Assembly (NCBI GenBank): GCA_016180645.1
Contig: JACPAV010000015.1
Span: forward strand, 1 to 64,000
Source: Nitrospirota bacterium
Lineage (GTDB): Bacteria; JACPQY01
Direction: 5' to 3'
Length of the DNA: 64,000 nt
Below are positions 20,065 to 50,626 of the stretch, one piece after another. The notes beneath the pieces are model-generated. The model had not been told where the DNA came from and did no database searches. It saw only the letters and a list, made by a program, of their open reading frames with translations. Both the position numbers and the translations under genes were made by a program. Positions within the stretch are counted from its first letter, which is position 1, and each line of letters starts with the position of its first letter.

Positions 20065-20757
20065 ATGGGAGCATCATCCAGTGTGGGCCATAGAAAGCGT
20101 CTTCGCCAACGCTTCCTCCGTGTCGGTTTGGCGGGCCTCGCCGACTATGAGTTGCTTGAACTGGTGCTCACCTTTGCGATTCCCCGACGGGATGTGAAGC
20201 CGACCGCGAAGGAGTTGCTTCACCGGTTCGGATCGCTGAAGTCCGTTCTCGACGCATCACCCGATCAATTGGCGGGAATAGAGGGAGTCGGTTCCAGAAC
20301 CGGAGACTACCTTCAGGTGCTTCGCGCCGCGATGCGCCGCTACCACGAGCTTGGAGTGGCGGAGAGCAAAGTGCTCAATTCGCCCAAGGCGGTACTTGAG
20401 CTTTGCCGGTCAAGCCTCGAAGCGGAAAAGAACGAAGTGTTTGAGGTCATCTATGTGTCTTCCAAGAATCGCTACCTTGGCACCGAACGATTTTCCGAGG
20501 GAACCATCGATCGGGCCACCGTCCACCCAAGGAGGATCTTGGAGAGCGCCTTTTCGAGAAAGGCCGCTGCCCTGATCCTGGTCCACAACCACCCGTCCGG
20601 CGATCCGGCGCCCTCCGAGGCGGACAAGCGGTTGACGAAAGCGGTCCTCGATGCGGCTGAGCCGATCGGATTGACCGTTCACGATCACCTCATTATCGGG
20701 AACGGACGCCATTTCAGTTTCCGCTCGGAAGGTCTTCTCGCGGAGATGCGCGGATGA
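20065..20757 (+). CDS. radC: RadC-family JAB/MPN domain protein
   Basis: 230 residues. N-terminal helix-hairpin-helix region (LADYELLELVLTFAIPRRDVKPTAKELL, then LAGIEGVGSRTGDYL) followed by the UPF0758/RadC JAMM metalloprotease-like domain with HNHPSGDPAPSEAD, the H-x-H-x10-D zinc motif, and HDHLIIGNG. RadC's biochemical role is unsettled; it is widespread on chromosomes and also in genomic islands. Its TGA overlaps the ATG of hsdR (ATGA), so the two are translationally coupled, an uncommon arrangement that ties RadC to the restriction operon. Confidence 0.93.
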   Translation: MGASSSVGHRKRLRQRFLRVGLAGLADYELLELVLTFAIPRRDVKPTAKELLHRFGSLKSVLDASPDQLAGIEGVGSRTGDYLQVLRAAMRRYHELGVAESKVLNSPKAVLELCRSSLEAEKNEVFEVIYVSSKNRYLGTERFSEGTIDRATVHPRRILESAFSRKAAALILVHNHPSGDPAPSEADKRLTKAVLDAAEPIGLTVHDHLIIGNGRHFSFRSEGLLAEMRG

Positions 20758-23153
20758 GCATGAGAGCCGTCGATTCGGAGGCCGACACCTGCCGGAAATA
20801 CATCGTCCCGAAACTTCACGACGCCGGATGGAACGACGATCTGATCAACGAACAGAGGACGATCACGGACGGGCGAATTGTGGTCGCGGGCGACAAGGTG
20901 CGGCGGAAGAAGTCGGGTCGGGTCGATTATCTCCTCCGCATTGCGCGTGATTTCTCAATGGCCGTCGTTGAGGCCAAAGCATCCTACAAAAAGCCGGCGG
21001 ACGGTCTTCAGCAGGCGAAGGACTACGCCCAAATGCTGGGTCTGAAGTTCGCCTTTTCCAGCAATGGACTGGGCATCGTTGAATTCGATTTCCTCACGGG
21101 CCAGATCGCGGAGCGGGCCGACTTCCCCTCGCCGACGGAACTGTGGACCCGACTGCGCAAGAGTCAGGGGCCGACGGACGACGCAGCCGCAACGCGGCTT
21201 CTAACTCCCGGATCGCGCGTTCAAGGCAAGCAGCCCCGATACTACCAGGAGATCGCGGTGAATCGGGTAGTGCAGGCGATGCTCCAAGGCCAACGTCGGG
21301 TCCTTCTCACCATGGCGACCGGCACGGGAAAAACCTTCGTGGCCTTCCAGATCATTTGGAAACTCTGGAACAGTCGATGGAATGCGCGGGGCGATCACCG
21401 AAAGCCGAGGGTCCTGTATCTCGCGGATCGGAATTTCCTCGTGGATGTGCCCAAAGACCGGGAGTTCGCGGTGTTCGAGGATGCTCGACACAAGATTGAA
21501 TCGGGACAGATCGTGAAATCCCGGGAAATCTACTTTGCGATCTACCAAGCCATCGCCCAAGACGAGCGTCGATCGGGACTATACAAGGAATTCACGCGAG
21601 ATTTCTTCGACCTGATCGTGGTTGACGAGTGCCACCGGGGCAGCGCAAAGGACGAAAGCAACTGGCGCGATATTCTTGAGCACTTCCAGCCGGCTTATCA
21701 GCTTGGAATGACCGCCACTCCGCTCCGGGACGACAACGTGGACACGTATGGATATTTCGAAAATCCGGTCTACACCTACAGCCTCAAACAGGGGATCGAG
21801 GACGGCTTTCTCGCCCCGTACAAGGTTCGACGCATCGTGACCACGGCGGACGCGGTCGGCTGGCGTCCCAAGCCCGGAGAGATCGACCGGGATGGTCGCC
21901 CGATCCCGGACCAAGTCTACCAGACCCCGGAATTCGATAGGCTCCTGGCTCTGAAGCCCCGAACGGAGGCCATCGCCCGCCATCTCACGGATCACCTCCG
22001 GCAGACCAATCGATACGACAAGACCATCGTGTTCTGTGTCGACCAGGAGCACGCGCTGGAAATGATGAAGGCACTGACCAATCTGAACGCCGATTTGGCG
22101 CAAAGGCACGCGGACTACGTTGTGCGAATTACGTCCGACGAGGAGGAAATCGGGCGGGGGCACCTGGATCGATTCAGCGACGTGGAGAAGACAACCCCCG
22201 TGATCGTTACCACTTCCAAATTACTCACCACGGGCGTGGACGTTCCGACGTGCAAGAACATCGTTATCGCCCGGGTCGTGAATTCCATGACCGAGTTCAA
22301 GCAAATCATCGGTCGGGGCACGCGGGTGCGGGACGACTATGGGAAGTACTACTTCACGATTCTTGACTATACGGGGAGCGCGACGCGGCTGTTTGCCGAC
22401 CCGGTTTTCGACGGTGAGCCGGCGCTGCTGACTGAAGAAGGGATCGATGGGCAGGGTCGGGTTACATCCCCGCCGCGTGAGCCGGAACCGGCAGAAGAGT
22501 ACGAATCCCGCGAATCACAAGATGAATTCGTGGATGACTCCCCAACCGACTGCTCCTTTCCGGGACCGGCCGGAGGGGAAAGGCGCAAGTTCCATGTGGA
22601 CCAGGGTTATGTTGAGATCGCAGCCGATGTGGCCTACGAGATGGACGAGCATGGAAATCAACTGAAGGCGACCAAGTACACCGACTACACGATGGAGCAG
22701 GTGAGGTCGATGTTTTCCAGCGCGGCGGAGCTTCGAAGCAAGTGGACCCGCGCGGAGGAGCGGTCGCGGATCATCGACGCGCTGGCGGAGCGCGGAATCA
22801 CAATCGAACGTCTGGCCGAGGTCGCGGGTCAGCACGACGCCGACCCGTTCGATCTGCTATGCAACGTAGCTTACAGCCTTCCACTCCGAAGTCGACGTGA
22901 GCGAGCGGAACAAGTGCGCAAAGGGAATACGGACTTCCTGGGTCGATACACTAAGGAAGCGAGAGAGATACTGAACCTGCTTCTGGACAAGTACATTGAG
23001 CACGGGGTAGCAGAATTCAGAATCCCGGACATCTTGAAAGTCTCGCCCCTTTCGAGCCATGGCAACATCATCGAAATCGCGGCGCGATTTGGGGGGACCG
23101 ACAAACTCCGCGAGGCGGTGGCCGAACTCCAGTCGCTCCTCTACGCCGCCTGA
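20754..23153 (+). CDS. hsdR: Type I restriction enzyme R subunit
   Basis: 799 residues, the length of EcoEI/EcoR124-relative HsdR proteins. N-terminal nuclease: GRVDYLLRI...MAVVEAKAS (PD-(D/E)xK with D and E-x-K). Then SF2 translocase: TMATGTGKTFVAF (Walker A), LIVVDECHRGSAKD (DEAD-like box), LGMTATPLRDDN (motif III), ITSDEE and MTEFKQIIGRGTRVRDDYGK (motif VI). The C-terminal ~170 residues match an EcoEI_R_C helical domain that binds the methyltransferase core. It cleaves unmethylated foreign DNA after translocation in complex with HsdM and HsdS. Confidence 0.95.
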   Translation: MSMRAVDSEADTCRKYIVPKLHDAGWNDDLINEQRTITDGRIVVAGDKVRRKKSGRVDYLLRIARDFSMAVVEAKASYKKPADGLQQAKDYAQMLGLKFAFSSNGLGIVEFDFLTGQIAERADFPSPTELWTRLRKSQGPTDDAAATRLLTPGSRVQGKQPRYYQEIAVNRVVQAMLQGQRRVLLTMATGTGKTFVAFQIIWKLWNSRWNARGDHRKPRVLYLADRNFLVDVPKDREFAVFEDARHKIESGQIVKSREIYFAIYQAIAQDERRSGLYKEFTRDFFDLIVVDECHRGSAKDESNWRDILEHFQPAYQLGMTATPLRDDNVDTYGYFENPVYTYSLKQGIEDGFLAPYKVRRIVTTADAVGWRPKPGEIDRDGRPIPDQVYQTPEFDRLLALKPRTEAIARHLTDHLRQTNRYDKTIVFCVDQEHALEMMKALTNLNADLAQRHADYVVRITSDEEEIGRGHLDRFSDVEKTTPVIVTTSKLLTTGVDVPTCKNIVIARVVNSMTEFKQIIGRGTRVRDDYGKYYFTILDYTGSATRLFADPVFDGEPALLTEEGIDGQGRVTSPPREPEPAEEYESRESQDEFVDDSPTDCSFPGPAGGERRKFHVDQGYVEIAADVAYEMDEHGNQLKATKYTDYTMEQVRSMFSSAAELRSKWTRAEERSRIIDALAERGITIERLAEVAGQHDADPFDLLCNVAYSLPLRSRRERAEQVRKGNTDFLGRYTKEAREILNLLLDKYIEHGVAEFRIPDILKVSPLSSHGNIIEIAARFGGTDKLREAVAELQSLLYAA

Positions 23154-23202
23154 GAAGAGTAATGCACACACCTTACATCTTGTGAAAGGTTCACGTTCAC
23201 TG

Positions 23203-24759
23203 ATGGGCAAACCGAGAGCGACACCTCCCACACCCGTCACCACAGCTCAGCAGCTTGCCTCCATCGTCAAGTCGGCGCGGGACATCATGCGCAAAGACAA
23301 GGGTCTCAACGGCGACCTGGACCGGCTGCCCATGCTCACGTGGATCATGTTCCTGAAATTCCTGGACGACAGCGAGCAGATCCGGGAGGCGGAGGCGAAA
23401 ATGGCGGGCAAACGTTTTCGCCCGGCCGTCGAGCCGCCGTACCGCTGGCGGGATTGGGCGGCCAGGGAAGACGGCGTCACCGGGCAGGAAATGATGGATT
23501 TCATCAACAACGAAGAGCCGATTCGACCCGATGGAACCCGAGGTCCGGGTTTGTTCGCGTATCTTCGCGGACTCCAGGGCGCCAACGGGGGCGACCGGCG
23601 GGACGTGATCGCGACGATCTTCCGCGGAGTGATCAACCGCATGATCAACGGCTATCTCCTTCGGGACATCCTGAACAAGGTGAATCAGATCCATTTCACC
23701 TCCAGCGAGGAAATGCACACTCTCAGTCGCCTGTACGAGTCCTTGCTCAAGGAGATGCGCGACGCGGCGGGCGATTCCGGCGAGTTCTACACTCCGAGGG
23801 CCGTGGTGAAATTCATCGTCCAGGCCGTGAATCCGCGGATGGGGGAGGTGGCGCTCGATCCGGCCGCAGGCACCGGCGGATTCCTCGTGGAATCCTTCGA
23901 GCATCTCAAGACGCAGTGCCGGAAAACGGAGGACTACCGGGTCCTCCAACGAGAAAGCATCTTCGGCATCGAAGCCAAGCCCCTGCCGTATCTGCTCTGC
24001 CAGATGAATCTGCTGCTGCACGGTCTGGAATATCCTCAAATCGACCCCCTGAACGCGCTCCGGTTCCCACTCAGAGAAATGGGGGATCGAGAACGAGTGG
24101 ACGTGATCGTGACGAATCCGCCGTTCGGTGGGGAGGAGGAAAAGGGCATTCTCTCGAACTTTCCGGAGGACCGGAAGACGAGCGAGACGGCGCTCTTGTT
24201 TCTCCAGCTCATCATGAGAAAACTTCGAAGATTGGGGACCGGCTTCAAGGGGGAGGGCGGACGATGCGGAATGATCGTTCCGAACGGGATCCTGTTCGGC
24301 GACGGCGTCTGCGCCCGGATCAAGGAGGAACTGCTCAAGGAGTTCAACCTTCACACGATTGTGCGCCTTCCAAACGGCGTCTTCGCGCCGTACACGAGCA
24401 TTCCCACGAACATTTTGTTTTTCGACCGTTCCGGGCCGACCGAGGATGTTTGGTACTACGAACATCCGCTGCCGGAAGGAAAGAAGAACTACACCAAGAC
24501 GCGGCCCATCCAGTTCGATGAGTTCAAGTCCTGCCTGGAGTGGTGGAGCAAGCGCGAGGAGAGCGACCGCGCATGGAAGGTGTCCGCCGACGAGATCCGA
24601 AAGACCGGATTCAACCTCGACCGAAAGAACCCCCGCGCCCGGCAGGACATCTCCCATCTTCCTCCCGAACAGATTGCCGAAAGCATCCTGGCCAAAGAAC
24701 ACCGCATCGTGCAGATCATGGCGAACATCAAAGGACTTCTCGGAAAACGCGAGGCATGA
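23203..24759 (+). CDS. hsdM: Type I restriction-modification M subunit (N6-adenine methyltransferase)
   Basis: 518 residues from ATG 23203, chosen because the upstream in-frame extension lies inside hsdR and is low-complexity. N-terminal HsdM helical domain (LASIVKSARDIMRKDKG; LTWIMFLKFLDDSEQ) followed by the N6_Mtase domain: LYESLLKEMRDAAGDSGEFYTPR, VALDPAAGTGGFL (motif I, SAM binding) and VDVIVTNPPFGGEEE (motif IV, NPPF catalytic). It methylates adenines at sites chosen by HsdS. It ends in a 4-bp ATGA overlap with hsdS, while the 49-bp gap from hsdR is the only break in the operon. Confidence 0.95.
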   Translation: MGKPRATPPTPVTTAQQLASIVKSARDIMRKDKGLNGDLDRLPMLTWIMFLKFLDDSEQIREAEAKMAGKRFRPAVEPPYRWRDWAAREDGVTGQEMMDFINNEEPIRPDGTRGPGLFAYLRGLQGANGGDRRDVIATIFRGVINRMINGYLLRDILNKVNQIHFTSSEEMHTLSRLYESLLKEMRDAAGDSGEFYTPRAVVKFIVQAVNPRMGEVALDPAAGTGGFLVESFEHLKTQCRKTEDYRVLQRESIFGIEAKPLPYLLCQMNLLLHGLEYPQIDPLNALRFPLREMGDRERVDVIVTNPPFGGEEEKGILSNFPEDRKTSETALLFLQLIMRKLRRLGTGFKGEGGRCGMIVPNGILFGDGVCARIKEELLKEFNLHTIVRLPNGVFAPYTSIPTNILFFDRSGPTEDVWYYEHPLPEGKKNYTKTRPIQFDEFKSCLEWWSKREESDRAWKVSADEIRKTGFNLDRKNPRARQDISHLPPEQIAESILAKEHRIVQIMANIKGLLGKREA

Positions 24760-25904
24760 GCGCGGAGTGGCCGGAGATCCCATTGGGGGAGGTTCTGCGA
24801 AGAAGCACGGAGACCATTTCACTACAGCCAGAGAGCGAGTATCGGGAAATTACCGTCAAACTTTGGGGAAAGGGTGTTTGCCAACGGGGGATTATTAGCG
24901 GAGCAAGGTTGGCCGGCGCACGCCGGTTCATCGCCAGAACAGGGCAGTTCATCTTTTCCCGAATCGATGCTCGAAATGGCGCACTCGGCGTCGTGCCGCC
25001 GGAGCTTGATGGCGCGGTGGTTACCAATGACTTTCCAGTGTTTGAGGTCGACCAAGATCATCTATCGACGGCATACATTGGGTGGATGTGTCGGACGGCC
25101 TGGTTTGTCGAGCAATGCCGACGGGCGAGTGAGGGGACAACCAACCGAGTGCGGTTGCAGGAAGACAAGCTCCTTTCCACCGAGATTCCGCTTCCGGCCT
25201 TGCCCGAGCAGCGGTGGATCGTGGCCCGCCTCGACGCCCTCGCCTCCCAAATCTCCGAAGCCCGGGGGCTCCGGCAGCAGGTGGCCGAAGAGGCGGAGGA
25301 GCTTTGCCGCTCAATCCTCAGCCACGACCCGGATGCGCATCAGACGCGCATGGCTGAGCTGGTGCGACTACGGCCCCCCGACGTAACGGTCAGACCGGAT
25401 GGAACGTATCGCTTTGCTGGTGTTTATTGCTTCGGGCGAGGTGTTTTTCCTGGAGGGTGGAAGTCCGGCTCGGAGTTCTCGTACAAGAAACTCACGAGAC
25501 TCAACGTGGGTGATTTCGTATATCCGAAACTGATGGCTTGGGAGGGGGCCTTGGGCATCGTCCCACCAGAATGTGAAGGCTGCGTCGTCTCCACGGAGTT
25601 TCCGGTGTTTGAGGTTCTTGAAGAGCGGGTCCTGCCGGTGGTCTTGGACACGTATTTCAGAACTCCATCCGTTTGGCCGAATCTCTCCGGCGCGAGTACC
25701 GGCACCAATGTGCGGCGCCGCCGCCTCAACCCGGCTGACTTCCTTGACTATTCGATTCCCCTCCCTTCACGGGGGACGCAAGAGCGCCTTCGTGAAGTAC
25801 GGAAGGGGGTCGATTCGCTCAAGCGCCTCCAATCCGAAACCGCCGCCGAGTTGGACGCCCTCCTCCCCTCCCTCCTCGACAAAGCCTTCAAGGGTGAACT
25901 ATAG
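24756..25904 (+). CDS. hsdS: Type I restriction specificity subunit
   Basis: 382 residues starting at the ATGA overlap with hsdM. Two half-repeats are visible. TRD1 (PEIPLGEVLRRS ... EIPLPALPEQRWIVARLD) is followed by a helical spacer (EARGLRQQVAEEAEELCRSIL). TRD2 (WPNLSGASTGTNVRRRRL ... YSIPLPSRGTQERLREV) leads to the conserved terminal helix AAELDALLPSLLDKAFKGEL. It sets the DNA target. The final 25 codons recur as diverged, orphan copies at 28008-28082 and 29855-29923, marking recombination events in this locus. Confidence 0.94.
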   Translation: MSAEWPEIPLGEVLRRSTETISLQPESEYREITVKLWGKGVCQRGIISGARLAGARRFIARTGQFIFSRIDARNGALGVVPPELDGAVVTNDFPVFEVDQDHLSTAYIGWMCRTAWFVEQCRRASEGTTNRVRLQEDKLLSTEIPLPALPEQRWIVARLDALASQISEARGLRQQVAEEAEELCRSILSHDPDAHQTRMAELVRLRPPDVTVRPDGTYRFAGVYCFGRGVFPGGWKSGSEFSYKKLTRLNVGDFVYPKLMAWEGALGIVPPECEGCVVSTEFPVFEVLEERVLPVVLDTYFRTPSVWPNLSGASTGTNVRRRRLNPADFLDYSIPLPSRGTQERLREVRKGVDSLKRLQSETAAELDALLPSLLDKAFKGEL

Positions 25905-25954: not shown

Positions 25955-27670
25955 ATGCTGACGAAACTTACGATCTCCAACTTCAAACTCTTCGACAGGG
26001 TGGAGATTGATCTTGCAGAACGGGTGGTCTTTGTCGGACCGAACAACGCCGGCAAGACCTCGGCGTTGCAGGCCCTCGCGCTTTGGAGCATCGGTCTGCG
26101 TCGCTGGGTGGAAAAGCGCGGACGAGGAAACGTTCCGAAGGAGCGCGCGGGTGTGACCATCAACCGGCGAGATCTCATTGCCCTTCCGGTCCCTTCCGCG
26201 AATCTCCTCTGGCGTGATCTTCATGTGCGCGAAAGCGTTCACGAGACGGAGAAGCCCAAAACACGCAACGTTCTGATCGAGATCAGCGTTGCAGGTGTGG
26301 ATGAAGGGAAGGAGTGGACGACGAGTTTCGAATTTGACTACGCGAACGAGGAGTCTTTCTATTGCCGATCGAAGCTGGGTCCGGGGGGATCCAGACTGGA
26401 GATATCGGAAGCGGCGGCAAACGTGGTCTTGGCGTACCTCCCGCCCATGTCAGGCCTGGCCTCCAACGAAACCCGGCTTGACGAAGGTGCAATCGCCGTC
26501 AGGATCGGGGAAGGAAGGACCGCGGAAGTCCTCAGGAACCTCTGCTGGCAGGCACTCCAGGGGAAAGGGGATCAATGGAGAAAGATTGTGGACAGGATGA
26601 AGGCTCTGTTCGGGGTCAGACTGGATGAACCGAAATACGTTAAGGAACGGGGTGAAGTAGTCATGTCTTTCGTAGGGCAAGGGGGAGTGCGTCTGGATTT
26701 GTCCTCCAGTGGTCGAGGCCAGCAACAGACGCTGCTTCTGCTCGCTCATATGGCGGCAAATCCTGGAGCGGTTCTCCTATTGGACGAGCCGGATGCCCAT
26801 CTTGAAATACTCCGGCAGCGTCAGATCTACCAAGTCCTGACGGATACGGCCGCGGAAACGGGCAGCCAAATAATCGCCGCCAGCCACTCGGAAGTCATCT
26901 TGAATGAAGCCGCGGACCGAGATTCTGTCGTCGCATTTGTGGGGGCCCCGCATCGAATCGACGGTCAGGGAAGTCAGGTTTTGAAGGCTCTGAAGGAAAT
27001 CGGCTTCGAGCAGTACGTTCAGGCCGAAGAGACCGGTTGGGTGCTCTACCTGGAAGGGTCTACGGATCTCGCCATTCTCCGCGCATTTGCGGCAAAGCTC
27101 ACTCACCCCGCCAGCGCGATGCTTGAGCGTCCGTTCGTTCACTATGTAGCGAATCAGCCGGGAAAGGCCCGGGACCATTTCTATGGTCTTCGTGAGGCAA
27201 AGCCCGATCTCGTCGGAATAGCATTATACGATCGATTGGATCAAACGCTCTCCAACGACCCCAACCTCGTCCAAACCCAGTGGCGCAGACGCGAGATCGA
27301 GAACTATCTTTGCCAACGCGACACCCTGCTGGCTTGGGCTGAAGCTCAGGGCCGGCCCCAAGGCGATCTGTTCGCGTCCGCTTGGCGATCAAGGATGAAC
27401 GAGTCCATTGATGAGATTGCCTCGGCACTGGCCGCGCTTCGCAAGCCGGCGCCGTGGAGTCCGGATATCAAAGCGAGTGACGACTTTCTTGACCCATTGT
27501 TCAAGAGATTTTACGAAGCTTTGAGCCTGCCCGGTCTCCTGAGGAAAACCGACTACCACACACTCGCGCCCTTCGTGCCCATTGACCAGATTGACAAGGA
27601 AGTTCGGGAAAAGCTCGATACTATTGTCGCGACCGCATTGATAGCTCACCCGCGTGGGGGTCCGGCATAG
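25955..27670 (+). CDS. OLD-like AAA ATPase with C-terminal Toprim domain (probable defence protein)
   Basis: 571 residues. SMC/RecF-type ATPase domain: VVFVGPNNAGKTSALQAL (Walker A, residues ~26-40), LSSSGRGQQQTLLLLAHM (signature), AVLLLDEPDAHLE (Walker B) and IIAASHSEVIL (switch His). Residues ~360-571 look like a Toprim nuclease: VLYLEGSTDLAILRAF gives the first acidic residue and VGIALYDRLDQ the acidic pair. This is the architecture of OLD-family proteins, including GajA of the Gabija system, but no UvrD-type GajB partner is adjacent. It starts 50 bp after hsdS and is the first of three cargo blocks. Antiphage function is inferred from family and location. Confidence 0.8.
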   Translation: MLTKLTISNFKLFDRVEIDLAERVVFVGPNNAGKTSALQALALWSIGLRRWVEKRGRGNVPKERAGVTINRRDLIALPVPSANLLWRDLHVRESVHETEKPKTRNVLIEISVAGVDEGKEWTTSFEFDYANEESFYCRSKLGPGGSRLEISEAAANVVLAYLPPMSGLASNETRLDEGAIAVRIGEGRTAEVLRNLCWQALQGKGDQWRKIVDRMKALFGVRLDEPKYVKERGEVVMSFVGQGGVRLDLSSSGRGQQQTLLLLAHMAANPGAVLLLDEPDAHLEILRQRQIYQVLTDTAAETGSQIIAASHSEVILNEAADRDSVVAFVGAPHRIDGQGSQVLKALKEIGFEQYVQAEETGWVLYLEGSTDLAILRAFAAKLTHPASAMLERPFVHYVANQPGKARDHFYGLREAKPDLVGIALYDRLDQTLSNDPNLVQTQWRRREIENYLCQRDTLLAWAEAQGRPQGDLFASAWRSRMNESIDEIASALAALRKPAPWSPDIKASDDFLDPLFKRFYEALSLPGLLRKTDYHTLAPFVPIDQIDKEVREKLDTIVATALIAHPRGGPA

Positions 27671-27763
27671 GCGACGCGGTTTAAGACTGGCCGCGAGCAA
27701 GACGTTTGGGGCTTCGCTGGCAGTAGATCCCGCAGGCGAAAAGGCACGGGCGAGAGGACAGGA

Positions 27764-27797
27764 AAAGAAAAAGCCCCGTGATTAACCGGCTCACGGG
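27764..27797 (-). terminator. Rho-independent terminator of the small RNA
   Basis: Perfect 7-bp stem CCCGTGA / TCACGGG (27775-27781 and 27791-27797) with a 9-nt loop. On the minus strand it is followed at once by a T-rich run (GGCTTTTTCTTTTCC). On the plus strand there is no T-run, so it works only for leftward transcription. Confidence 0.72.
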
Positions 27798-27857
27798 ACC
27801 AGAAGCCATGTCCAGCGCCATGAGGCGTGGAGTAGCTGCTTGGTTTCCCAAGCATCA
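27765..27857 (-). ncRNA. Candidate small RNA in the defence island
   Basis: A ~93-nt transcript is predicted between a good minus-strand promoter (27863-27891) and a terminator (27764-27797). Reading 5' to 3' on the minus strand it has three stem-loops. The first is a perfect 6-bp stem closed by a GAAA tetraloop (27838-27853). The second is an 8-bp stem with one bulge, TCCA-CGCC / GGCG-x-TGGA (27811-27831). The third is the terminator. No open reading frame of note lies inside and no gene follows on that strand, so it is not a leader. Its 5' region does not match any RNA family I know. It could be a regulator of the flanking defence genes, an RNA antitoxin or an antisense RNA to the 3' end of the upstream AAA/Toprim mRNA. 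Confidence 0.6.
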
Positions 27858-27862
27858 GTACC

Positions 27863-27891
27863 ATCCTAAATGAATTGTCATGACATGTCAA
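27863..27891 (-). promoter_or_regulatory. Promoter and palindromic operator of the small RNA
   Basis: On the minus strand: TTGACA (consensus -35, 27886-27891), 17-bp spacer, TAGGAT (-10, 27863-27868). Two overlapping perfect 10-bp palindromes, TGTCATGACA (27877-27886) and TGACATGTCA (27881-27890), cover the -35 box and spacer and look like a repressor site. Confidence 0.62.
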
Positions 27892-28007
27892 TCATTTCCG
27901 GTCATTTACCGTCATCGCATGCCGGCATGTACCGTGATTGTTTGGGAATCGCAAGCATGACGGGAAGTTCCAGACGGGAACGTAGCACGTGAGGCAGTGG
28001 AATACCT

Positions 28008-28082
28008 CAATCGGAAATCGCAGCCGAACTCGACGCCCTCCTTCCCTCCCTCCTCGACAAAGCCTTCAAAGGTGAATTATAG
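28008..28082 (+). pseudogene. Orphan hsdS 3' end (copy 2)
   Basis: 25 codons reading QSEIAAELDALLPSLLDKAF then KGEL and TAG, one residue different from the end of the intact HsdS (25830-25904). At the DNA level 9 of 75 bases differ and eight of those changes are silent, so this is the tail of a different hsdS allele and not a recent duplication. Nothing HsdS-like lies upstream of it. The next gene starts 9 bp after its stop. The remaining DNA from 27671 to 28007 holds the small-RNA gene and otherwise no gene that I can see. Confidence 0.88.
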
Positions 28083-28091
28083 TTTGGTGAA

Positions 28092-29246
28092 ATGAGATTC
28101 ACGGCGCTTCAAATCGGGAACTGGCGAAACTTTGAGAAGGCGGAAGTCGAGCTTCAGGACCGCGTGTTCCTGGAGGGGCCGAACGCCTCCGGAAAATCCA
28201 ATCTTCTCGACGTGTTTCGATTTCTGCATGATGTGGTGGCGGTGGGCGGCGGTTTTCAAGAAGCGGTGAGGCGGCGTGGCGGAGTGTCAAGCTTGAGATC
28301 GCTGGCTGCCAGGCGTTACTCGGACATTGTGATCAAGGCATCCCTGGGAACTGACCGGGACAGAACCGCCTGGGAGTACGAGGTGTGCTTTAATCAGGAC
28401 AATACGGCTCAGCCCGGTACCCCTCGGCCACTGATCAAGAAGGAAACGGTGACGCATCACGGCAAAATTCTGCGGAATCGACCCGACGAATCGGACGCTC
28501 AGGACCCGGAGCGACTGACCCAGACGTATCTTGAGCAGGTTCATGCCAACAAAGACTTCCGGGAAGTAGCCGAGTTTTTCAGCACTGTTCGCTACCTGCA
28601 CATCGTTCCCCAATTGGTCCGTGACCCGGATCGTTCGAAGGGAATGAAAGACGACCCCTACGGAGGTGATTTCATCGAACAGATCGCCCGAACTCAGAAA
28701 CGAACTCGCGAAGCATGGCTCCGGCGCATCCAAGACGCATTGCGCGTCGCGGTGCCGCAACTTAAGGAGTTGACACTCCAGCAGGACTCTCGGGGCGTTC
28801 CGCATCTCCAAGGCAGATACGAGCACTGGCGCCCACAGGGCGCGTGGCAGACGGAAGAGTTGTTCTCTGATGGCACATTGAGGCTCATGGGCCTGCTGTG
28901 GGCCGCTTTGGACGGCAGCGGACCTTTGTTGCTGGAAGAACCTGAAATCTCACTCCATCCTGAGGTCGTCCGATACATTCCACAGATGTTTTTCCGACTA
29001 CAGCGAAAATCCGGACGGCAATTTGTCGTAAGTACGCATTCACTCGAGGTGGTGGGAGACGAGGGTGTCGGTGTGGACGAGGTTCTGCTTCTTCAGCCCG
29101 GATCAGAGGGAACGGTCTTGCTCCCGGCGAGTCGCCTGAAAGATGTCAAGTCGCTCCTCGAAGGCGGACTCTCATTGGCCGAGGCAGTGATGCCTCACAC
29201 ACGCCCTGAAAGAGCGGAGCAGCTCCCTCTTCTTGCCGACGAATAA
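28092..29246 (+). CDS. RecF/SMC-like AAA ATPase (AAA_21 type)
   Basis: 384 residues. VFLEGPNASGKSNLLDVF (Walker A, residues ~26-43), a long middle insertion, LFSDGTLRLMGLLWA (signature region), GPLLLEEPEISLHPEVV (Walker B with catalytic Glu) and FVVSTHSLEVV (switch His). This is the ATPase type that pairs with small nuclease-like partners in anti-phage modules. The next gene, a DUF4276-like protein, starts 9 bp downstream from a TTG, so they form a two-gene unit bounded on both sides by orphan hsdS tails. The defence role is inferred. Confidence 0.83.
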   Translation: MRFTALQIGNWRNFEKAEVELQDRVFLEGPNASGKSNLLDVFRFLHDVVAVGGGFQEAVRRRGGVSSLRSLAARRYSDIVIKASLGTDRDRTAWEYEVCFNQDNTAQPGTPRPLIKKETVTHHGKILRNRPDESDAQDPERLTQTYLEQVHANKDFREVAEFFSTVRYLHIVPQLVRDPDRSKGMKDDPYGGDFIEQIARTQKRTREAWLRRIQDALRVAVPQLKELTLQQDSRGVPHLQGRYEHWRPQGAWQTEELFSDGTLRLMGLLWAALDGSGPLLLEEPEISLHPEVVRYIPQMFFRLQRKSGRQFVVSTHSLEVVGDEGVGVDEVLLLQPGSEGTVLLPASRLKDVKSLLEGGLSLAEAVMPHTRPERAEQLPLLADE

Positions 29247-29255
29247 CCTTCTCCC

Positions 29256-29858
29256 TTGCCGGTCGTTTTCTCAGGTGCAGTAGAAGGTGTGTTGGACGAA
29301 GCGGTTCTCCGCCGACTTCTCCTGCATATCGGGGCAGGAATTGGACCCATCCATCGAAGGAACGGCAAGGACTCATTGAGACGCAGGGTATCCGCCTTCA
29401 ACAATGCCGCACGGCACTCCCCCTGGATCGTAGTCGTAGACCTGAACCATGAGGCGCACTGCGCTCCGCCGCTGCGAGCATCTTGGCTGCCAAGCCCGGC
29501 TCCAGGAATGTGTTTCCGTGTCGCCGTTCGAGAAATCGAGTCCTGGATCATGGCGGACCGAGCAAGGCTCGCCCGTTACTTGCGGGTCCAGCAGGCTCGG
29601 GTTCCCTCGGACCCGGAGGCGCTCGATGATCCAAAAACAGCGCTGGTTAACCTGGCTCGTACTTCGACCAAGAAAGCCGTCCGGGAAGACATGGTTCCGA
29701 GGCTGGGAAGCGGCAGGAAGATCGGTCCCGCCTATACATCTCGACTGATCGAATTCGTGTCGGACCAGGAACGCGGATGGCGCCCGGACGTGGCAGCGGC
29801 GGGGTCCGACAGCCTGGGAAGATGTCTCAGGTCACTCAGGAATCTTGTCCATTCGTGA
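29256..29858 (+). CDS. DUF4276-like protein, Toprim-like partner of the AAA ATPase
   Basis: 200 residues from TTG 29256. The pattern VFSGAVEGVLDEAVLRRLL at the start (the position of G-E-G-x-T-E in relatives), SPWIVVVDLNHEA (acidic strand end) and CFRVAVREIESWIMADRARLARYL in the centre matches DUF4276 proteins, which share the Toprim-like layout of conserved acids. The usual GEGxTE is altered to AVEGVLDE, so activity may differ. A basic C-terminal region follows. It most likely acts with the preceding ATPase as an effector subunit. Its stop codon overlaps the third hsdS tail by 4 bp. Confidence 0.65.
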   Translation: MPVVFSGAVEGVLDEAVLRRLLLHIGAGIGPIHRRNGKDSLRRRVSAFNNAARHSPWIVVVDLNHEAHCAPPLRASWLPSPAPGMCFRVAVREIESWIMADRARLARYLRVQQARVPSDPEALDDPKTALVNLARTSTKKAVREDMVPRLGSGRKIGPAYTSRLIEFVSDQERGWRPDVAAAGSDSLGRCLRSLRNLVHS

Positions 29859-29923
29859 TCGCCGCCGAACTGGACGCCCTCCTCCCCACCCTCCTCGACA
29901 AGGCCTTCCGGGGTGAATTGTGA
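29855..29923 (+). pseudogene. Orphan hsdS 3' end (copy 3)
   Basis: 23 codons reading VIAAELDALLPTLLDKAFRG then EL and TGA. It is a third version of the conserved HsdS terminal helix, with Thr and Arg replacements and a TGA instead of TAG stop. It abuts the end of the DUF4276-like gene and precedes the next cargo gene by 29 bp. Confidence 0.86.
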
Positions 29924-29952: not shown

Positions 29953-30705
29953 GTGGCAGTCGAAAGAGAAATCTTCCCCAATGCGCCGATTACAGAAGCA
30001 CTGCTGGATGTTCGCGCCAATCTGCCGACCGGCACATCCATCGAGACTCTCGCCGCCTATCACGATTCCATCAGGGCCCGTTACCCGCTCAAACGGGAAA
30101 GGCAGCGGTGGCAAGTCGGTCATGAATTCAGGCCTGCCGGCCCGCCTTCAATTTTGGGGCCGACGGGGGGGCCGGACGGCTACATCTTTGAATCTCAGGA
30201 CAAGAAACAGGCGGTTCAGGCGCGATTGGATGGTTTCACGTTCAACAGGCTGAAACCGTATCATCAATGGGAATCGCTTCGGGAGGAGGCGATGGATCTC
30301 TGGGGTCAATATGTAGAACTTGCGAAACCCACTGCGATCACGCGGCTTGCGCTACGGTACATCAATCGGATCGAAATTCCCTTGCCCGCAGTTGATCTGA
30401 AAGAATACATCCTTACCGGGCCGGAAGTGGCAAGAGGATTGCCTCAGGGGTTGGCCAATTTCTTCATGCGCGTAATGATCCCCAGCCCGGATTCGAGGGC
30501 GACGGCCCTGGTAACGCTGACGATGGAAGTCCCGACAACGGTGGAAGGTCCTTTGCCTTTCATTTTCGATATCGACGTTTTCCATGAGGAGTCCATGGTA
30601 CCGGGAAGCGGTGGAATGCCGAAAGTGCTTGAAAATCTTCACGAATTCAAGAATAATATCTTCTTCGGAAGCATTACGGATAAGTGCAAGAAGCTTTTTA
30701 GATGA
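29953..30705 (+). CDS. TIGR04255-family protein
   Basis: 250 residues from GTG 29953. The opening EIFPNAPITEALLDVRANLP, the middle TRLALRYINRIEIP and the ending LENLHEFKNNIFFGSITDKCKKLF are the conserved blocks of TIGR04255, a family of unknown function frequent in genomic islands. The family often pairs with small hypothetical partners, as here: the next gene begins within its stop codon (ATGA). I cannot assign an activity. Position behind an orphan hsdS tail suggests an island-borne, possibly defensive or stress-related unit. Confidence 0.72.
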   Translation: MAVEREIFPNAPITEALLDVRANLPTGTSIETLAAYHDSIRARYPLKRERQRWQVGHEFRPAGPPSILGPTGGPDGYIFESQDKKQAVQARLDGFTFNRLKPYHQWESLREEAMDLWGQYVELAKPTAITRLALRYINRIEIPLPAVDLKEYILTGPEVARGLPQGLANFFMRVMIPSPDSRATALVTLTMEVPTTVEGPLPFIFDIDVFHEESMVPGSGGMPKVLENLHEFKNNIFFGSITDKCKKLFR

Positions 30706-31187
30706 ACCTGCAGATTGTGGATTCCTCAGGCCACGCTGGGCGTTCTTGGTACGCCCAACCTCCACATGCCATTCTTGTCCATGATTTCTACAATGCCGGC
30801 GGCGCCACCAGCCTCGAGGCGGGGGCCGTCTCTCTGGCCTTGGAGAGAATCGTCGAACACTATGCCGAACCCATTACGAGGAAGCAGAATCCGATTGAGC
30901 AGCGGTTCCGAACCCTTGCCTCAAAATGGAAAGCTGAGACGAAACATCTCTCCTTCATTTCGGCCATGGCTGTTCATCCAGCTTATCAAGGCATAATCGG
31001 CATGGGACCCGCCGTGGTTCCGTACTTGCTGGATGAGTTGGCCCGAGAGCCTGATCACTGGTTTTGGGCGCTCCGGTCCATCACTGGAGTCGATCCCGTT
31101 CCCCCATCCATGCGCGGGCGAGTCCGGGAGATGGCGGCTGCCTGGCTCGATTGGGGCAAACTTCAGGGATATGGCCAGCCGAGGTGA
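30702..31187 (+). CDS. Conserved hypothetical protein of the TIGR04255 unit
   Basis: 161 residues. The C-terminal ~85 residues are a recognisable conserved block: RFRTLASKWKAETKHLSF, then MAVHPAYQGIIGMGPAVVPYLLDEL and DHWFWALRSITGVDPVPP. The block recurs in small proteins of unknown function, where it precedes a DUF7689-type protein exactly as here. The helical GMGPAVVPYLLDELAREPDHWFWAL segment resembles a single HEAT-like hairpin. The N-terminal half is unassigned. Overlaps both neighbours (4 and 17 bp). Confidence 0.68.
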   Translation: MNLQIVDSSGHAGRSWYAQPPHAILVHDFYNAGGATSLEAGAVSLALERIVEHYAEPITRKQNPIEQRFRTLASKWKAETKHLSFISAMAVHPAYQGIIGMGPAVVPYLLDELAREPDHWFWALRSITGVDPVPPSMRGRVREMAAAWLDWGKLQGYGQPR

Positions 31188-45359: not shown

Positions 45360-45538
45360 ATCGGTGCACAATGGTAACCCTTACGCCTTATAGGTTGTTG
45401 ACCGACCGTTTGGATTGGGCAAGCATGGATCAACAATTAGTGTCACTTGTGCCACGGGGCTTCGACAGGGGAATGAAAACGAAAAGGGAGGATGGATGTG
45501 TCGGTTCTTGCTTTCCCGCGAGGCCATCGGGTAACCCC

Positions 45539-48500
45539 ATGACTCGCCTGTCCCTGCCTCGATCCTGGATCCGATCTCTCCGGCTTTCTCTCCCTTTTTA
45601 CCTTTTACTTTTGACTTTTTCCTTGCCTCTGGCCGCCTGCTATCGCAAAACCAAGCACACGGAGTCGAACAAGATCCCGTCCGACAGTCTCCCACTCGAC
45701 GTATCTCTCCCGCTGTCCACCGAGGTGGCCGCGGCCCTCAACGGCGTGGCCGATCAGGATGAGCTCGTTGTGGATGTCCTGGTGAACGACGAACTCGTGG
45801 CGGAGGGCGTTCGCGGCGGCATCCGCGCGGGGGTTCGCGCCTCGGAGCAGTCGGGTGTTCGGGGAGGAATACGCGCCTCCCAAGCGGGAGGTGTTCGCGG
45901 GGGTGTGCGCGGCGGCGTGCGAGGCGCGGGAGGAACCGAACCCATACCCGGCGCTCCCGCGCGTGAACCCGTAAATCGTGACCCCGTGAACCAGATCGGA
46001 ACTTCTGGCTCACGGGGTCACGGGATCACGGGATCACGGAAGCAGGCGAGCGAGAGCGAGCTTGCGTTTGCGTTCGAGGTAACCTCCTTCCTGCCCAGGA
46101 AGTCCGCCCGGGACGGAGAGAACAACTTCCACACGCGAGTGCGTCCCGGCCGGCATCCCGACGTGTCTCTCGTCGAAGTTAAAACAACCGTCAAAATGTC
46201 TGTCCCTTCTTCTGTAGCGGCCGGTTTTACACCGGACGGATCTTCCACCGGCGACGGGCGACCGACGACCGACGACTTTGAGTTCGAAATAGAGATCGAA
46301 GACACCGACATCGACCTTTCCGAGGTGGACCTTCCCGATCTCGACGGCAACGGGATCGCCACGATCACCGAGGTTGCCGCTCTCATTGGAAGCGAGGCCG
46401 TAGGGGCGGGCTTGCCCGCCCGTTCGTTGGATGACGCCATCGCCATCGCCTCGGATGCCACCAGCACGCAGAAGCCCACGCAGGAGCAGGCGCAGGCGGC
46501 CTTCCAATCTCTCGCCGCCAAGCTGGAGAAAAAAGTCGTCGCGGACTTCAAAGCCGCAGGGGTCACGCCTCCGGCCGAGGTCAAGATCGAGATCAAGGAA
46601 ATCGATCTGACGCCGCCGGAGACGACGGTCGACGGTCGACGGACGACGGTCGACGGTTCTTGGACCTTCACCTTCACGTGCAATGAAACATTCTGCACGT
46701 TCCGTTGCTCTGTGGACGGGGCCGAGTTTGCGCCGTGTTCCTCTCCGGTCACCCTGAGTTGCGCCGCGGTAGTCGCGGGCTTCACGCCTGCGCGTCCCGT
46801 ACCGGTAGCCGCAGGCTTTAGCCTGCGTCCGAAAGACGCACCCGTAAAGGGTGCGCCTACCTCGTGTACACCTGGCGAACATGAGCTCGCCGTCTTCGCC
46901 CTCGACGCCCTCGGCAACCGCGACACGACCCCCGCCGAGATCACATTCACCGTTCTCCCCTCCTGCATCCCCTCCGCCGAAATCTGCGACGGCCTCGACA
47001 ACGACTGCGATCAATTGGTCGATGAAGACTGGGTAGCCGCACCCTTTACGGGTGCGTCTTCAGACGCAGGCATAAAGCCTGCGGCTACCGTTGCTTCGCT
47101 CGGCCAATCCTGCACCGTGGGCGTCGGCGCCTGCCAGACCACGGGCGCGTTTATCTGCAAGTCGGACGGGACGGGGACGGTTTGCGATGCCGTGGCCGGT
47201 TCGCCTTCCGCCGAGATCTGCGACGGCAAGGACAACGACTGCGACGGGAAAACCGATGAAGACATCCCTTCCGCCTCGTGCTCAACCGGCTCCCCGGGAA
47301 TCTGTAGCGCAGGCCTTCAGGCCTGCGTGAACGGTTCCCTCACCTGCGCCCAACGCCTATCGCCCATCGCCGAAATCTGCGACGGCCTCGACAACGACTG
47401 CGACGGCCAGACGGACGAGGACTTCGTAGCGTCCGGTTTTACACCGGACGGTCCCTTGGGCCAGACTTGCTCGACCGGCGTGGGTGAGTGCGCGAGGGCG
47501 GGCACGTTCGTGTGCAAGGCGGATGGCACGGGGACATCGTGCAATACGGTCGCCGGATCGCCTGCCGCCGAGACCTGCGACTCAAAGGACAACGATTGCG
47601 ACGGTTTGACGGACGAAAACTTCGTGTGCGATACAACCGCGCCCACCTTCTCCGGCCTCACCTCCGCCACCGCCATCTCCGCCTCCCAGATCAACCTCTC
47701 CTGGACCGCCGCGTCCGACGCCGTGAGTCCCGCGTCCTCCCTGATCTACGACATCTGCCAGACCACCACCTCCGGCGGTTGCTCCGCGTTCACGCCTACC
47801 TACACCACTGCCGCGGGAGCCACTTCCTATTCGCCAGGAACTCTGTCACCAGGAACCAGGTACTTCTATGTTGTTCGGGCAAGAGATGAGGTGGGAAATG
47901 CAGATACGAACAACATAGAACGGTCGGCCCGCACGTGGTCCACCATCGGCGTGGCCCAAGCCGTCACCACCCACCTCGGCTATCACACCTGCTCGCTCCA
48001 ATCCGATGGAACGGTGAAATGCTGGGGGCTCAATGACTTCGGTCAGCTCGGGGATGGAACGACGGTGAACAAGTCCACGCCCGTTGCCGTCAGCACGCTC
48101 TCGGGCGCCATCGCCGTCGCGGGAGGGACCAGCCACACTTGCTCGCTTCTTTCAAATGGTACAGTAGCGTGCTGGGGGAACAATGGTGATGGCCGGCTTG
48201 GGGACGGGACGGTCGTCAATAAATCCACGCCGGTTATGGTCAGCACGCTGACGAATGCCGTGGCCGTCGCGGTAGGGGGCGGCCACAATTGTTCGCTCCA
48301 TTCGGACGGCACGGCCAAGTGCTGGGGGTACAACCGCAACAATATCGCGACCGGAACCGGCCAGCTTGGAGATGGGACAACGACCGATAAGTCCACCCCG
48401 GTGGCCGTGAGTTCCTTGTCGAACGGCGTGGCCGTCGCGGCAGGGACCTATCACACGTGTTTCCTTCTTTCGGACGGTGCGGTCCGGTGTTGCGGGGACA

Positions 48501-50146
48501 ACCAATACGGCCAGCTTGGGGATGGAACGCTCGCCAGCAAATCCACTCCGGTGGCCGTCAGCACGCTCACGAATGTTGTGGCCATCGCGGGAGCGTGGTG
48601 GCACGTCTGTTCGCTTCTTTCGGACGGTACGGTGAAGTGCTGGGGACAGAATACCTACGGTGGGCTTGGGGACGGGACAGTTGCCAGCAAATCCACTCCG
48701 GTGGCCGTCAGTACGCTCACGAATGTTGTGGCCATCGCGGGAGGATCGAATCACACCTGTTCCCTACTTTCCGACGGCACGGTGAAATGCTGGGGGTGGA
48801 ATCCCTACGGTCAGCTTGGGGATGGGGCGACGGTGCAAAAGACGACTCCCGTGGCCGTCGCCACGCTTTCCGGTGCGATCTCCGTTGCGGGAGGGAGCGG
48901 CCACTCATGCTCGCTTCTTTGGGACGGCACGGTCAAATGCTGGGGGTACAATCTCTACGGCCAGCTAGGAGACGGGACGACGGTGAACAGATGGGCCCCC
49001 GTGGCCGTCTCGATGCCCCCCGCCGCAGGCGGGGTGAAACTTCCGCGCCTCCACGAATCCACCGCCTCCGGCGCCCCCGCCCGCCCCTTCCGCGAAGGGA
49101 TCTCCGCCCACCGCGGCAACCATTCTTGCGCGCTCGTTTCAAACGGAACGGTCAGATGCTGGGGATGGAACACTAATGGTCAGGTTGGGGATGGGACCAC
49201 CGCCAACCGCCTAACGCCCACCGCCGTTTCTTCTTTGACGAACGTCGTGGCCGTAGCGGATGGGGGCATTCACACCTGCGCGTTGGCATCGGATGGAACG
49301 GTAAAATGCTGGGGAGACAATGCTTACGGCCAGTTGGGGGACGGCACGACGGTCGACAAATCGACGCCTGTTTTCGTCTCCACACTCACGAACACCGTGG
49401 CGGTGACGGGTGGGAACGCTCACACCTGCGCGCTCACCTCGGACGGCTCGGCCACATGTTGGGGATACAATTTGTTCGGGCAGTTGGGGGACGGCACGGG
49501 GGCCGGCAAATCGACGCCTGTTTTCGTCTCCACACTCACGAACACCGTGGCGGTGACGGGTGGGGACAACTACACCTGCGCGCTCGCATCGGACGGAACG
49601 GTAAAATGCTGGGGACGCAACAATTACGGCCAATTGGGCGACGGGACGACAGCGGGCAAGTCGACGCCCGTGGCTGTCTCGACGCTTTCGGGCGCCGTTG
49701 CCGTCGCGGCAGGGGCCGATCACACCTGCGCCCTGGCTGCCGACGGAACAGTCAAATGCTGGGGCGCCAATGCCGATGGCCGGTTGGGGGACGGCACCAC
49801 AGTTGACAAGTGGACGCCCGTTTCCGTCTCAACGCTCACGAACGTCGTGGCCGTAACGGGCGGCGGGACCGCTCACAGCTGCGCCTTGGCTGCCGACGGA
49901 ACAGTCAAATGCTGGGGAGCCAATGGACAGGGCCAACTGGGCGACGGGACGACGGTGAACAAGTCCACCCCGGTCGCCGTCTCCATGCTCACGAACGCCG
50001 TAGCGATAGCGGGTGGGGACGTTCACACCTGCGCCCTGGCTGCCGACGGAACAGTCAAATGCTGGGGATCTAACAATGTCGGCCAACTCGGCGACGGGAC
50101 GACGGTGAATCGGTTGACCCCCGTCCCGGTAATCAACTTGCCATGA
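45539..50146 (+). CDS. Giant lipoprotein 1: Arg-rich repeats, MopE motifs, two RCC1 propellers
   Basis: 1535 residues from ATG 45539, chosen because it gives a lipoprotein signal (LLLLTFSLPLAAC). Order: LPLDVSLPLSTEVAAALNGV block; VAEGVRGGIRAGVR-type Arg/Gly repeats; a Ca-loop-like LPDLDGNGIATITE; an Ig-like Cys-rich domain (FTCNETFCTFRCSVDG); four MopE motifs CDGxDNDCDGxxDE; an FN3-type domain; then 14 RCC1 repeats (HTCSLLSDGTVKCWGxN.GQLGDGT) split 7+7 by a proline-rich linker containing ESTASGAPARPFREG, which equals two seven-bladed propellers. Surface-exposed binding protein, ligand unknown. The gene holds many palindromic and heptamer repeats translated in frame. Confidence 0.88.
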   Translation: MTRLSLPRSWIRSLRLSLPFYLLLLTFSLPLAACYRKTKHTESNKIPSDSLPLDVSLPLSTEVAAALNGVADQDELVVDVLVNDELVAEGVRGGIRAGVRASEQSGVRGGIRASQAGGVRGGVRGGVRGAGGTEPIPGAPAREPVNRDPVNQIGTSGSRGHGITGSRKQASESELAFAFEVTSFLPRKSARDGENNFHTRVRPGRHPDVSLVEVKTTVKMSVPSSVAAGFTPDGSSTGDGRPTTDDFEFEIEIEDTDIDLSEVDLPDLDGNGIATITEVAALIGSEAVGAGLPARSLDDAIAIASDATSTQKPTQEQAQAAFQSLAAKLEKKVVADFKAAGVTPPAEVKIEIKEIDLTPPETTVDGRRTTVDGSWTFTFTCNETFCTFRCSVDGAEFAPCSSPVTLSCAAVVAGFTPARPVPVAAGFSLRPKDAPVKGAPTSCTPGEHELAVFALDALGNRDTTPAEITFTVLPSCIPSAEICDGLDNDCDQLVDEDWVAAPFTGASSDAGIKPAATVASLGQSCTVGVGACQTTGAFICKSDGTGTVCDAVAGSPSAEICDGKDNDCDGKTDEDIPSASCSTGSPGICSAGLQACVNGSLTCAQRLSPIAEICDGLDNDCDGQTDEDFVASGFTPDGPLGQTCSTGVGECARAGTFVCKADGTGTSCNTVAGSPAAETCDSKDNDCDGLTDENFVCDTTAPTFSGLTSATAISASQINLSWTAASDAVSPASSLIYDICQTTTSGGCSAFTPTYTTAAGATSYSPGTLSPGTRYFYVVRARDEVGNADTNNIERSARTWSTIGVAQAVTTHLGYHTCSLQSDGTVKCWGLNDFGQLGDGTTVNKSTPVAVSTLSGAIAVAGGTSHTCSLLSNGTVACWGNNGDGRLGDGTVVNKSTPVMVSTLTNAVAVAVGGGHNCSLHSDGTAKCWGYNRNNIATGTGQLGDGTTTDKSTPVAVSSLSNGVAVAAGTYHTCFLLSDGAVRCCGDNQYGQLGDGTLASKSTPVAVSTLTNVVAIAGAWWHVCSLLSDGTVKCWGQNTYGGLGDGTVASKSTPVAVSTLTNVVAIAGGSNHTCSLLSDGTVKCWGWNPYGQLGDGATVQKTTPVAVATLSGAISVAGGSGHSCSLLWDGTVKCWGYNLYGQLGDGTTVNRWAPVAVSMPPAAGGVKLPRLHESTASGAPARPFREGISAHRGNHSCALVSNGTVRCWGWNTNGQVGDGTTANRLTPTAVSSLTNVVAVADGGIHTCALASDGTVKCWGDNAYGQLGDGTTVDKSTPVFVSTLTNTVAVTGGNAHTCALTSDGSATCWGYNLFGQLGDGTGAGKSTPVFVSTLTNTVAVTGGDNYTCALASDGTVKCWGRNNYGQLGDGTTAGKSTPVAVSTLSGAVAVAAGADHTCALAADGTVKCWGANADGRLGDGTTVDKWTPVSVSTLTNVVAVTGGGTAHSCALAADGTVKCWGANGQGQLGDGTTVNKSTPVAVSMLTNAVAIAGGDVHTCALAADGTVKCWGSNNVGQLGDGTTVNRLTPVPVINLP
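45593..45627 (+). repeat. Heptanucleotide repeat in the signal-peptide codons of lipoprotein 1
   Basis: Five 7-bp units: CCTTTTT, ACCTTTT, ACTTTTG, ACTTTTT, CCTTGCC. They encode the hydrophobic core of the lipoprotein signal. Confidence 0.6.
45978..46021. repeat. Long hairpin repeat inside lipoprotein 1
   Basis: Perfect 12-bp arms GTGACCCCGTGA / TCACGGGGTCAC continued by CCAGA / TCTGG, giving a ~18-bp stem with one mismatch and an 8-nt loop. Followed by tandem copies of CACGGGAT. Translated within REPVNRDPVNQIGTSGSRGH. Confidence 0.8.
46214..46238. repeat. Palindromic element translated in lipoprotein 1 (CCGGT-type)
   Basis: GTAGCGGCCGGTTTTACACC followed by GGACG; the arms CCGGT/ACCGG flank TTTAC. 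The same element recurs at 47427-47452 and, inverted, at 57089-57112. Translated VAAGFTPDG here. Confidence 0.75.
46401..46421. repeat. GGCGGGC-TT-GCCCGCC palindrome in lipoprotein 1
   Basis: Same GTAGGGGCGGGCTTGCCCGC element as at 52601, 62340 and 62601. Translated VGAGLPA in all four places. Confidence 0.78.
46626..46653 (+). repeat. Heptanucleotide tract (CGGTCGA)4
   Basis: Units CGGTCGA, CGGTCGA, CGGACGA, CGGTCGA, translated VDGRRTTVDG. Confidence 0.75.
46804..46860. repeat. Compound palindromic element, copy 1
   Basis: Two adjacent hairpins: CGCAGGC-TTTA-GCCTGCG (46810-46827) and CGCACCC-GTAAA-GGGTGCG (46837-46855), bounded by GGTAGCC and CCTAC. Translated VAAGFSLRPKDAPVKGAPT. An inverted copy lies 170 bp downstream. 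Confidence 0.85.
47033..47089. repeat. Compound palindromic element, copy 2 (inverted)
   Basis: The reverse complement matches copy 1 at 46804-46860 almost base for base, including both hairpins and the GTAGCC/GGCTAC ends. Because it is inverted it is read as a different peptide, VAAPFTGASSDAGIKPAAT, yet no stop codon arises. Confidence 0.85.
47303..47328. repeat. CGCAGGCC-TTCA-GGCCTGCG... hairpin in lipoprotein 1
   Basis: Perfect 8-bp stem with a 4-nt loop (47308-47327) preceded by GTAG, placed between two MopE motifs and translated CSAGLQACV. Confidence 0.75.
47347..47374 (+). repeat. Heptanucleotide tract in lipoprotein 1
   Basis: Units CGCCCAA, CGCCTAT, CGCCCAT, CGCCGAA. Related tracts (CCGCCAA, CCGCCTA...) occur at the matching RCC1 positions near 49200 and 54840. 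Confidence 0.6.
47427..47452. repeat. GTCCGGT-TTTAC-ACCGGAC palindrome in lipoprotein 1
   Basis: Perfect 7-bp arms preceded by GTAGC. Second copy of the element at 46214, translated VASGFTPDGP after a MopE motif. Confidence 0.8.
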
Positions 50147-50179
50147 GAATACGGATGAGCGGTCAGGCCGCCCCCGAGG

Positions 50180-50299
50180 CTAGGACCCCGATGCTTCCTT
50201 GCGCTGACGCTCGTACTGGTGGCCCATGATGAACGCAAAAACGAGGATGCCGGCCATGACCGCCAGAAACACATATCCAACGATTTCCGCGTTGCTCAT
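50180..50299 (-). CDS. Small membrane protein, 39 residues
   Basis: Reads MSNAEIVGYVFLAVMAGILV then FAFIMGHQYERQRKEASGS: one membrane helix followed by a basic cytoplasmic tail. Its ATG overlaps the stop of the upstream 68-72-residue gene (ATGA), which strongly suggests translational coupling and a real gene. Nothing similar is recognised. The N-out/C-in layout with a short charged tail resembles small bitopic regulatory subunits. Confidence 0.6.
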   Translation of the reverse strand: MSNAEIVGYVFLAVMAGILVFAFIMGHQYERQRKEASGS

Positions 50300-50502
50300 G
50301 GTCCCATCCTATCGCCATCCAGCTTTCCCGTCAACCAGAACCCGGCCGCCAAACAGCCGACACCAATTGCCATCCCCAGGAAATCCACACCCAGCCTGGT
50401 TCCATCGACAAAAGCGTCCGCCACGCTGCCCGAAAGAACAACGAGACTTGCACTCTTCAAAAAATCCGCCATCCACTCAACCTGCCGCCTCGTCCACTTC
50501 AT
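50296..50502 (-). CDS. Small two-helix membrane protein, 68 residues
   Basis: From ATG 50502 (MKWTRRQVEWMADFLKSASL); ATG 50514 would add four residues. Two hydrophobic helices (LKSASLVVLSGSVADAF and LGVDFLGMAIGVGCLAAGFWL) joined by a short loop DGTRLG. Small proteins with this V-x-L-G-S/L-G-x-x-x-G-x-x-x-A pattern are common but uncharacterised. It forms a two-gene operon with the 39-residue membrane protein, opposite in direction to the surrounding lipoprotein genes. Together they fill most of the 480-bp gap between lipoproteins 1 and 2. Confidence 0.62.
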   Translation of the reverse strand: MKWTRRQVEWMADFLKSASLVVLSGSVADAFVDGTRLGVDFLGMAIGVGCLAAGFWLTGKLDGDRMGP

Positions 50503-50626
50503 CAAGCCGTTCATACGCCTCTTTCACCACCTACTCAAGTATCTTCTTGGCGGCCAGTTCGCCCGCCTCCTACCATCAGAAACTTGCCTCCCTCACTTTG
50601 GCCGTGCCAAGGGGAGAAAACGGTCG

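Follow-up and report, generated by a model that had tools for sequence, protein, structure and literature searches.

Does the one long gap in a string of phage-defence genes hold a gene of its own, and if so, how would that gene act on its surroundings? The question is raised by the window analysed here, a stretch of 64,000 nt from a Nitrospirota bacterium, in which hsdR (20754-23153), hsdM, hsdS (ending at 25904), an ATPase gene, HEC-01A and HEC-01B all lie on the plus strand. Successive genes of the string are separated by -4, 58, -4, 50, 421, 9, 94 and -4 nt. An earlier note, made from the sequence alone, had placed in the 421-nt gap, between the ATPase gene and HEC-01A, an undescribed gene for a small RNA, complete with promoter, operator and terminator, and had suggested that the RNA could control the neighbouring genes or be their effector or antitoxin. 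Table 1 gives the positions of the main features.

Table 1. Features of the candidate RNA gene, neighbouring defence genes, and occurrences of a promoter-region 17-mer in viral contigs
Feature	Position	Strand	Basis
-35 box TTGACA	27886..27891	-	sequence
-10 box TAGGAT, 4/6 consensus, 17-nt spacer	27863..27868	-	sequence
Possible operator TGACA-TGTCA-TGACA, two overlapping perfect 10-bp palindromes over -35 box and spacer	27876..27890	-	sequence
Predicted small RNA, ~94 nt, start inferred from -10 box	27764..27857	-	fold -43.6 kcal/mol, z about -5
Hairpin 1, 6 bp, GAAA tetraloop	27838..27853	-	fold
Hairpin 2, bulged 8-bp stem on 5-bp base	27804..27837	-	fold; z -3.7 alone
Intrinsic terminator, 10-bp stem, 9-nt loop, U tract	27764..27800	-	fold and terminator search
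hsdR-hsdM-hsdS	20754..25904	+	profile searches; EcoAI/FtnUII name from plasmid relatives
ATPase gene, AAA_21/AAA_15; AriA, AriAB, NsnB, OLD/Gabija-like; convergent with RNA	25955..27670	+	
HEC-01A ATPase gene, divergent from RNA	28092..29246	+	E 1.9e-156
HEC-01B gene	29256..29858	+	E 2.4e-61
17-mer TTGACATGTCATGACAA	L101 5529-5545; L102 3322-3338; L103 10354-10370; L104 246-262		viral contigs

Promoter, fold and terminator of the candidate gene

Inspection of the minus strand revealed a predicted promoter, TTGACA-17-TAGGAT, that matches 10 of the 12 consensus bases and that the main vegetative sigma factor would be expected to recognise. The consensus -35 box (27891-27886) and the 17-nt spacer described in the earlier note are both present. 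The -10 box is also where it had been placed (27868-27863), but with only 4 of 6 consensus bases it had been called good rather generously. Downstream of the promoter, the predicted fold of the RNA consists of three consecutive hairpins almost devoid of linkers, and these are the three structures that had been announced: a GAAA-tetraloop hairpin, a bulged 8-bp stem (UCCACGCC/GGCG-C-UGGA) standing on five further pairs, and a Rho-independent terminator, whose hairpin is followed by CUUUUUCUUUUCC. The terminator had been missed by the built-in scan because its loop is 9 nt long, whereas the scan allows loops of at most 8 nt.

The RNA (27857-27764) has a z-score of -5.1, none of 200 shuffled sequences being equally stable, and a larger test with dinucleotide shuffles gave a z-score of -4.9, with none of 1000 as stable. 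The same holds without the terminator, stems 1 and 2 alone also reaching -5.1. The complementary strand folds at -34.7 kcal/mol only, so that the fold and the U tract agree in pointing to the minus strand.

To what extent such a unit could arise by chance was estimated on a background sample of 392,566 bases, taken in stretches of the same genome and read on both strands. The sample contained 16 promoters with at least 10 of 12 consensus bases and seven strict terminators, and the element was the only case in which a promoter was followed by a terminator at a distance of 50-250 nt. Given the two densities, the entire sample should contain about 0.03 such pairs, an estimate made post hoc. This rarity, together with the independent statistic of the fold, makes a chance origin unlikely. 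A coincidental promoter-like match beside stable hairpins, or untranscribed debris, would agree with the incomplete -10 box, with the density of promoter-like matches in this region at a looser cut-off (~3 per 3 kb), with the 0.3% of same-composition windows that fold equally well, and with the lack of detected conservation. It accounts poorly for the joint occurrence of promoter and terminator, for the stability of the first two stems and for the agreement of the two strand indications, and we regard it as improbable. That the minus strand encodes instead a small protein is hardly credible. The absence of a coding frame, asserted in the earlier note, is not literally true, as an open frame of 81 codons (27891-27646) crosses the element, and an AGGA motif lies 8 nt upstream of an ATG at 27855; but this frame shows no sign of being a gene, with no match in Pfam or in plasmids, the terminator would cut it, and the antisense strand of this region is rich in open frames of 60-130 codons. 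The companion statement, that no gene follows downstream on that strand, held: there is no plausible one for ~9 kb.

A promoter at the right distance, a structure beyond chance and an intrinsic terminator, which are the marks of a stand-alone small RNA, were thus all found in the sequence, and the segment 27891-27764 of the minus strand is probably a transcribed, stand-alone small RNA gene. It is like the generic intergenic small RNAs of bacteria with a sigma-70 promoter and an intrinsic terminator, that is, structured RNAs of ~50-200 nt with no coding function, except that it has no sequence or structure match in Rfam, no known target, and no detected Hfq in its genome.

The overlapping perfect palindromes reported at the -35 region are indeed there: TGACATGTCA and TGTCATGACA overlap at 27890-27876, and together form a triple half-site TGACA/TGTCA/TGACA. 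By itself, this motif is near chance and not significant (in the 392-kb background, one observed versus 0.37 expected), and no second exact copy exists in the genome. Its position alone is notable: an operator is plausible because the triple half-site covers the -35 box, where a dimeric DNA-binding protein may repress the RNA gene. Four viral contigs contain the 17-mer TTGACATGTCATGACAA, always in a promoter-like position; in L102 and L104, which are related, it is flanked by a small HTH gene on one side and by a gene for a larger protein of 278-293 aa, likely a regulator, on the other. A phage repressor site was considered and rejected: the 15-mer core of the operator is no commoner than its mirror-image control (19 versus 26 occurrences), and this line of evidence was therefore dropped.

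Search for relatives of the element and for ties to the neighbouring systems

The element is present in a single copy in its genome. Searches of Rfam, at both the gathering and a relaxed threshold, returned no credible match to it; blastn against plasmids and phages gave no meaningful match, and viral contigs contained no homologue. A covariance model built on the single sequence detected no homologue, and so no conservation or compensatory base change, in about 475 genomes, with two genomes available for the phylum of the source genome. The model was run on 386 diverse genomes, on a further 85 + 3 + 2 genomes and on 40 loci, and these two additional sets gave no match at all. The one weak match among the 386 genomes (30 bits, L044) was discarded: it is a common terminator that follows a protein gene, and in it stem 1 is disrupted and most of stem 2 is lacking. 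Likewise, the exact stem-1 pattern occurred nine times in 84,980 species genomes, always in unrelated terminators with a GAAA-type loop. A tRNA-like RNA was also considered, and ARAGORN found none. Three hsdS relatives (L096-L098) and two plasmid loci (L099 and L100) were compared for gene order only; the genomes of the former three are within the 386 searched with the model. Being without an Rfam family, single-copy and the sole composite of its kind in 392 kb, the element is well supported by its sequence, and contradicted by no result, as the undescribed gene that had been proposed.

The claim that the RNA controls its neighbours, or serves them as effector or antitoxin, received no positive support. 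The ATPase matches the PADLOC profiles NsnB, AriA, AriAB and OLD/Gabija with E values from 1e-21 to 1e-12; it is a single-chain protein, these matches are only distant, and it possibly represents an unnamed PARIS/OLD-like defence family. Homologues at 56-72% identity are found in genomes of other lineages and in other settings; in L013, for instance, type III-like restriction genes lie next to one. Neither the ATPase homologues (30-72% identity, readable flanks) nor any of 29 HEC-01A homologues (flanks up to 1.5 kb) have the element beside them; it therefore does not belong invariably to either of the adjoining systems. Nor is its predicted pairing to the neighbours' start regions unusual, the duplex energies being no outlier relative to 243 other genes. 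The label "antitoxin or effector" is a guess.

The 3'-terminal 75 nt of hsdS recur as direct repeats (25830-25904, 28008-28082 and 29849-29923), from which the history of the region can be read in part: the first copy closes hsdS itself, the second precedes HEC-01A and the third an ORF at 29953, and each of the three downstream units has one copy ahead of it. Each copy ends with ELDALLPSLLDKAFKGEL or a close variant, then a stop codon. Copies 1 and 2 differ by seven synonymous and one replacement codon changes, and so look as if they came from the ends of distinct hsdS genes that were each functional. Recombination in the conserved hsdS tail may have stacked the defence cassettes here, and the RNA region is probably a recombination scar flanked by these repeats. 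The repeat arrangement was not seen in two hsdS relatives, L096 and L097. The third tail is followed by ORF250 and ORF161 (29953-31187, 4-nt overlap), neither of which has a Pfam or PADLOC match. Elsewhere in the window, positions 45371-60422 are occupied by a row of long tandem-repeat surface proteins (RCC1-like and FG-GAP-like repeats) of up to 1974 codons.

Proposed local action and its alternatives

The RNA lies in the sole long gap of the string and points against it, and a local effect is the simplest one to propose given this position and direction. A stand-alone small RNA acting locally as a counter-transcript or insulator is the best explanation overall, which we hold tentatively; supposing that the RNA is transcribed, the chances of a local mode of action are about even. 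Any message reading through from the ATPase gene into HEC-01A would contain 94 nt perfectly complementary to the RNA. The RNA, together with converging polymerases, would then oppose read-through, and HEC-01 would be uncoupled from the upstream genes. Gene order fits such a counter-transcript, as does the lack of a detected plus-strand terminator in the gap (27671-28091). Read-through may nevertheless not matter, since a predicted plus-strand promoter (28054-28083, 10/12), within the hsdS-tail repeat just upstream of HEC-01A, could give HEC-01 its own transcription. Another point against local antisense action is the compact fold with its GAAA loop, as efficient antisense RNAs typically have open loops. 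Like cis-encoded counter-transcript RNAs, the candidate stands opposite a same-strand string and is perfectly complementary to any read-through message; unlike them, it overlaps no coding sequence, its GAAA and UCAU loops lack the open form seen in antisense RNAs, and the read-through itself is putative.

Three other modes of action, and one further origin, have to be weighed against this local one. The RNA could act in trans, by base-pairing or protein-binding, on targets elsewhere, its place in a defence island being incidental or due to joint transfer. A complete stand-alone unit with a compact fold, tied to neither neighbour in other genomes, is what one would expect of such a regulator; against it, no homologue and no target were identified, and Hfq (PF17209) had no match in this 97%-complete genome, in a search that gave matches in 5 of 14 control genomes, among them E. 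coli and B. subtilis. The failure to detect Hfq weakens the usual trans-acting route, while leaving Hfq-independent action possible, and we consider action in trans rather unlikely. The element might also be what remains of a minus-strand gene, namely its leader or attenuator, the coding part having been displaced on arrival of the ATPase cassette. A terminated leader would look identical, and the probable recombination scar would suit such a loss, but further along the minus strand, in the stretch taken up by the ATPase gene, there is no coding remnant, and the odds are firmly against this origin.

Lower still we place an RNA antitoxin, or an RNA component, of the PARIS/OLD-like ATPase or of HEC-01. 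Other loci do have RNA antitoxins, or defence systems with an RNA part, AvcI of avcID (PMC10511110) being one example, and the RNA sits between both systems. With the antitoxins of type III toxin-antitoxin loci (ToxI, AvcI), it has in common a structured RNA and a phage-defence setting. It differs from them in having no tandem repeats of the RNA unit at the locus, no toxin gene downstream in the transcript and no association with relatives of its neighbours, as seen beside the homologues of both; moreover, it points away from HEC-01 and is co-transcribed with neither system. These differences speak against an antitoxin or component, which is very unlikely. Finally, a phage-responsive switch can be imagined, in which a phage-type repressor would bind the triple TGACA/TGTCA operator and the released RNA would set the expression or activity of the ATPase or HEC-01; we give it only a slim chance. 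If it were true, a small RNA regulator would be integral to such a defence cassette, of which we know of no described case.

An orphan intergenic small RNA of this anatomy is a known and common kind of object, and the candidate is a credible one-off whose link to defence is unproven; an effect on the ATPase or on HEC-01 would raise its significance. If transcribed, it would add a hitherto undescribed small RNA gene to a deep bacterial lineage that has scarcely been sampled and that shows no detectable Hfq, and the RNA would be placed where the expression of stacked defence systems could be separated.
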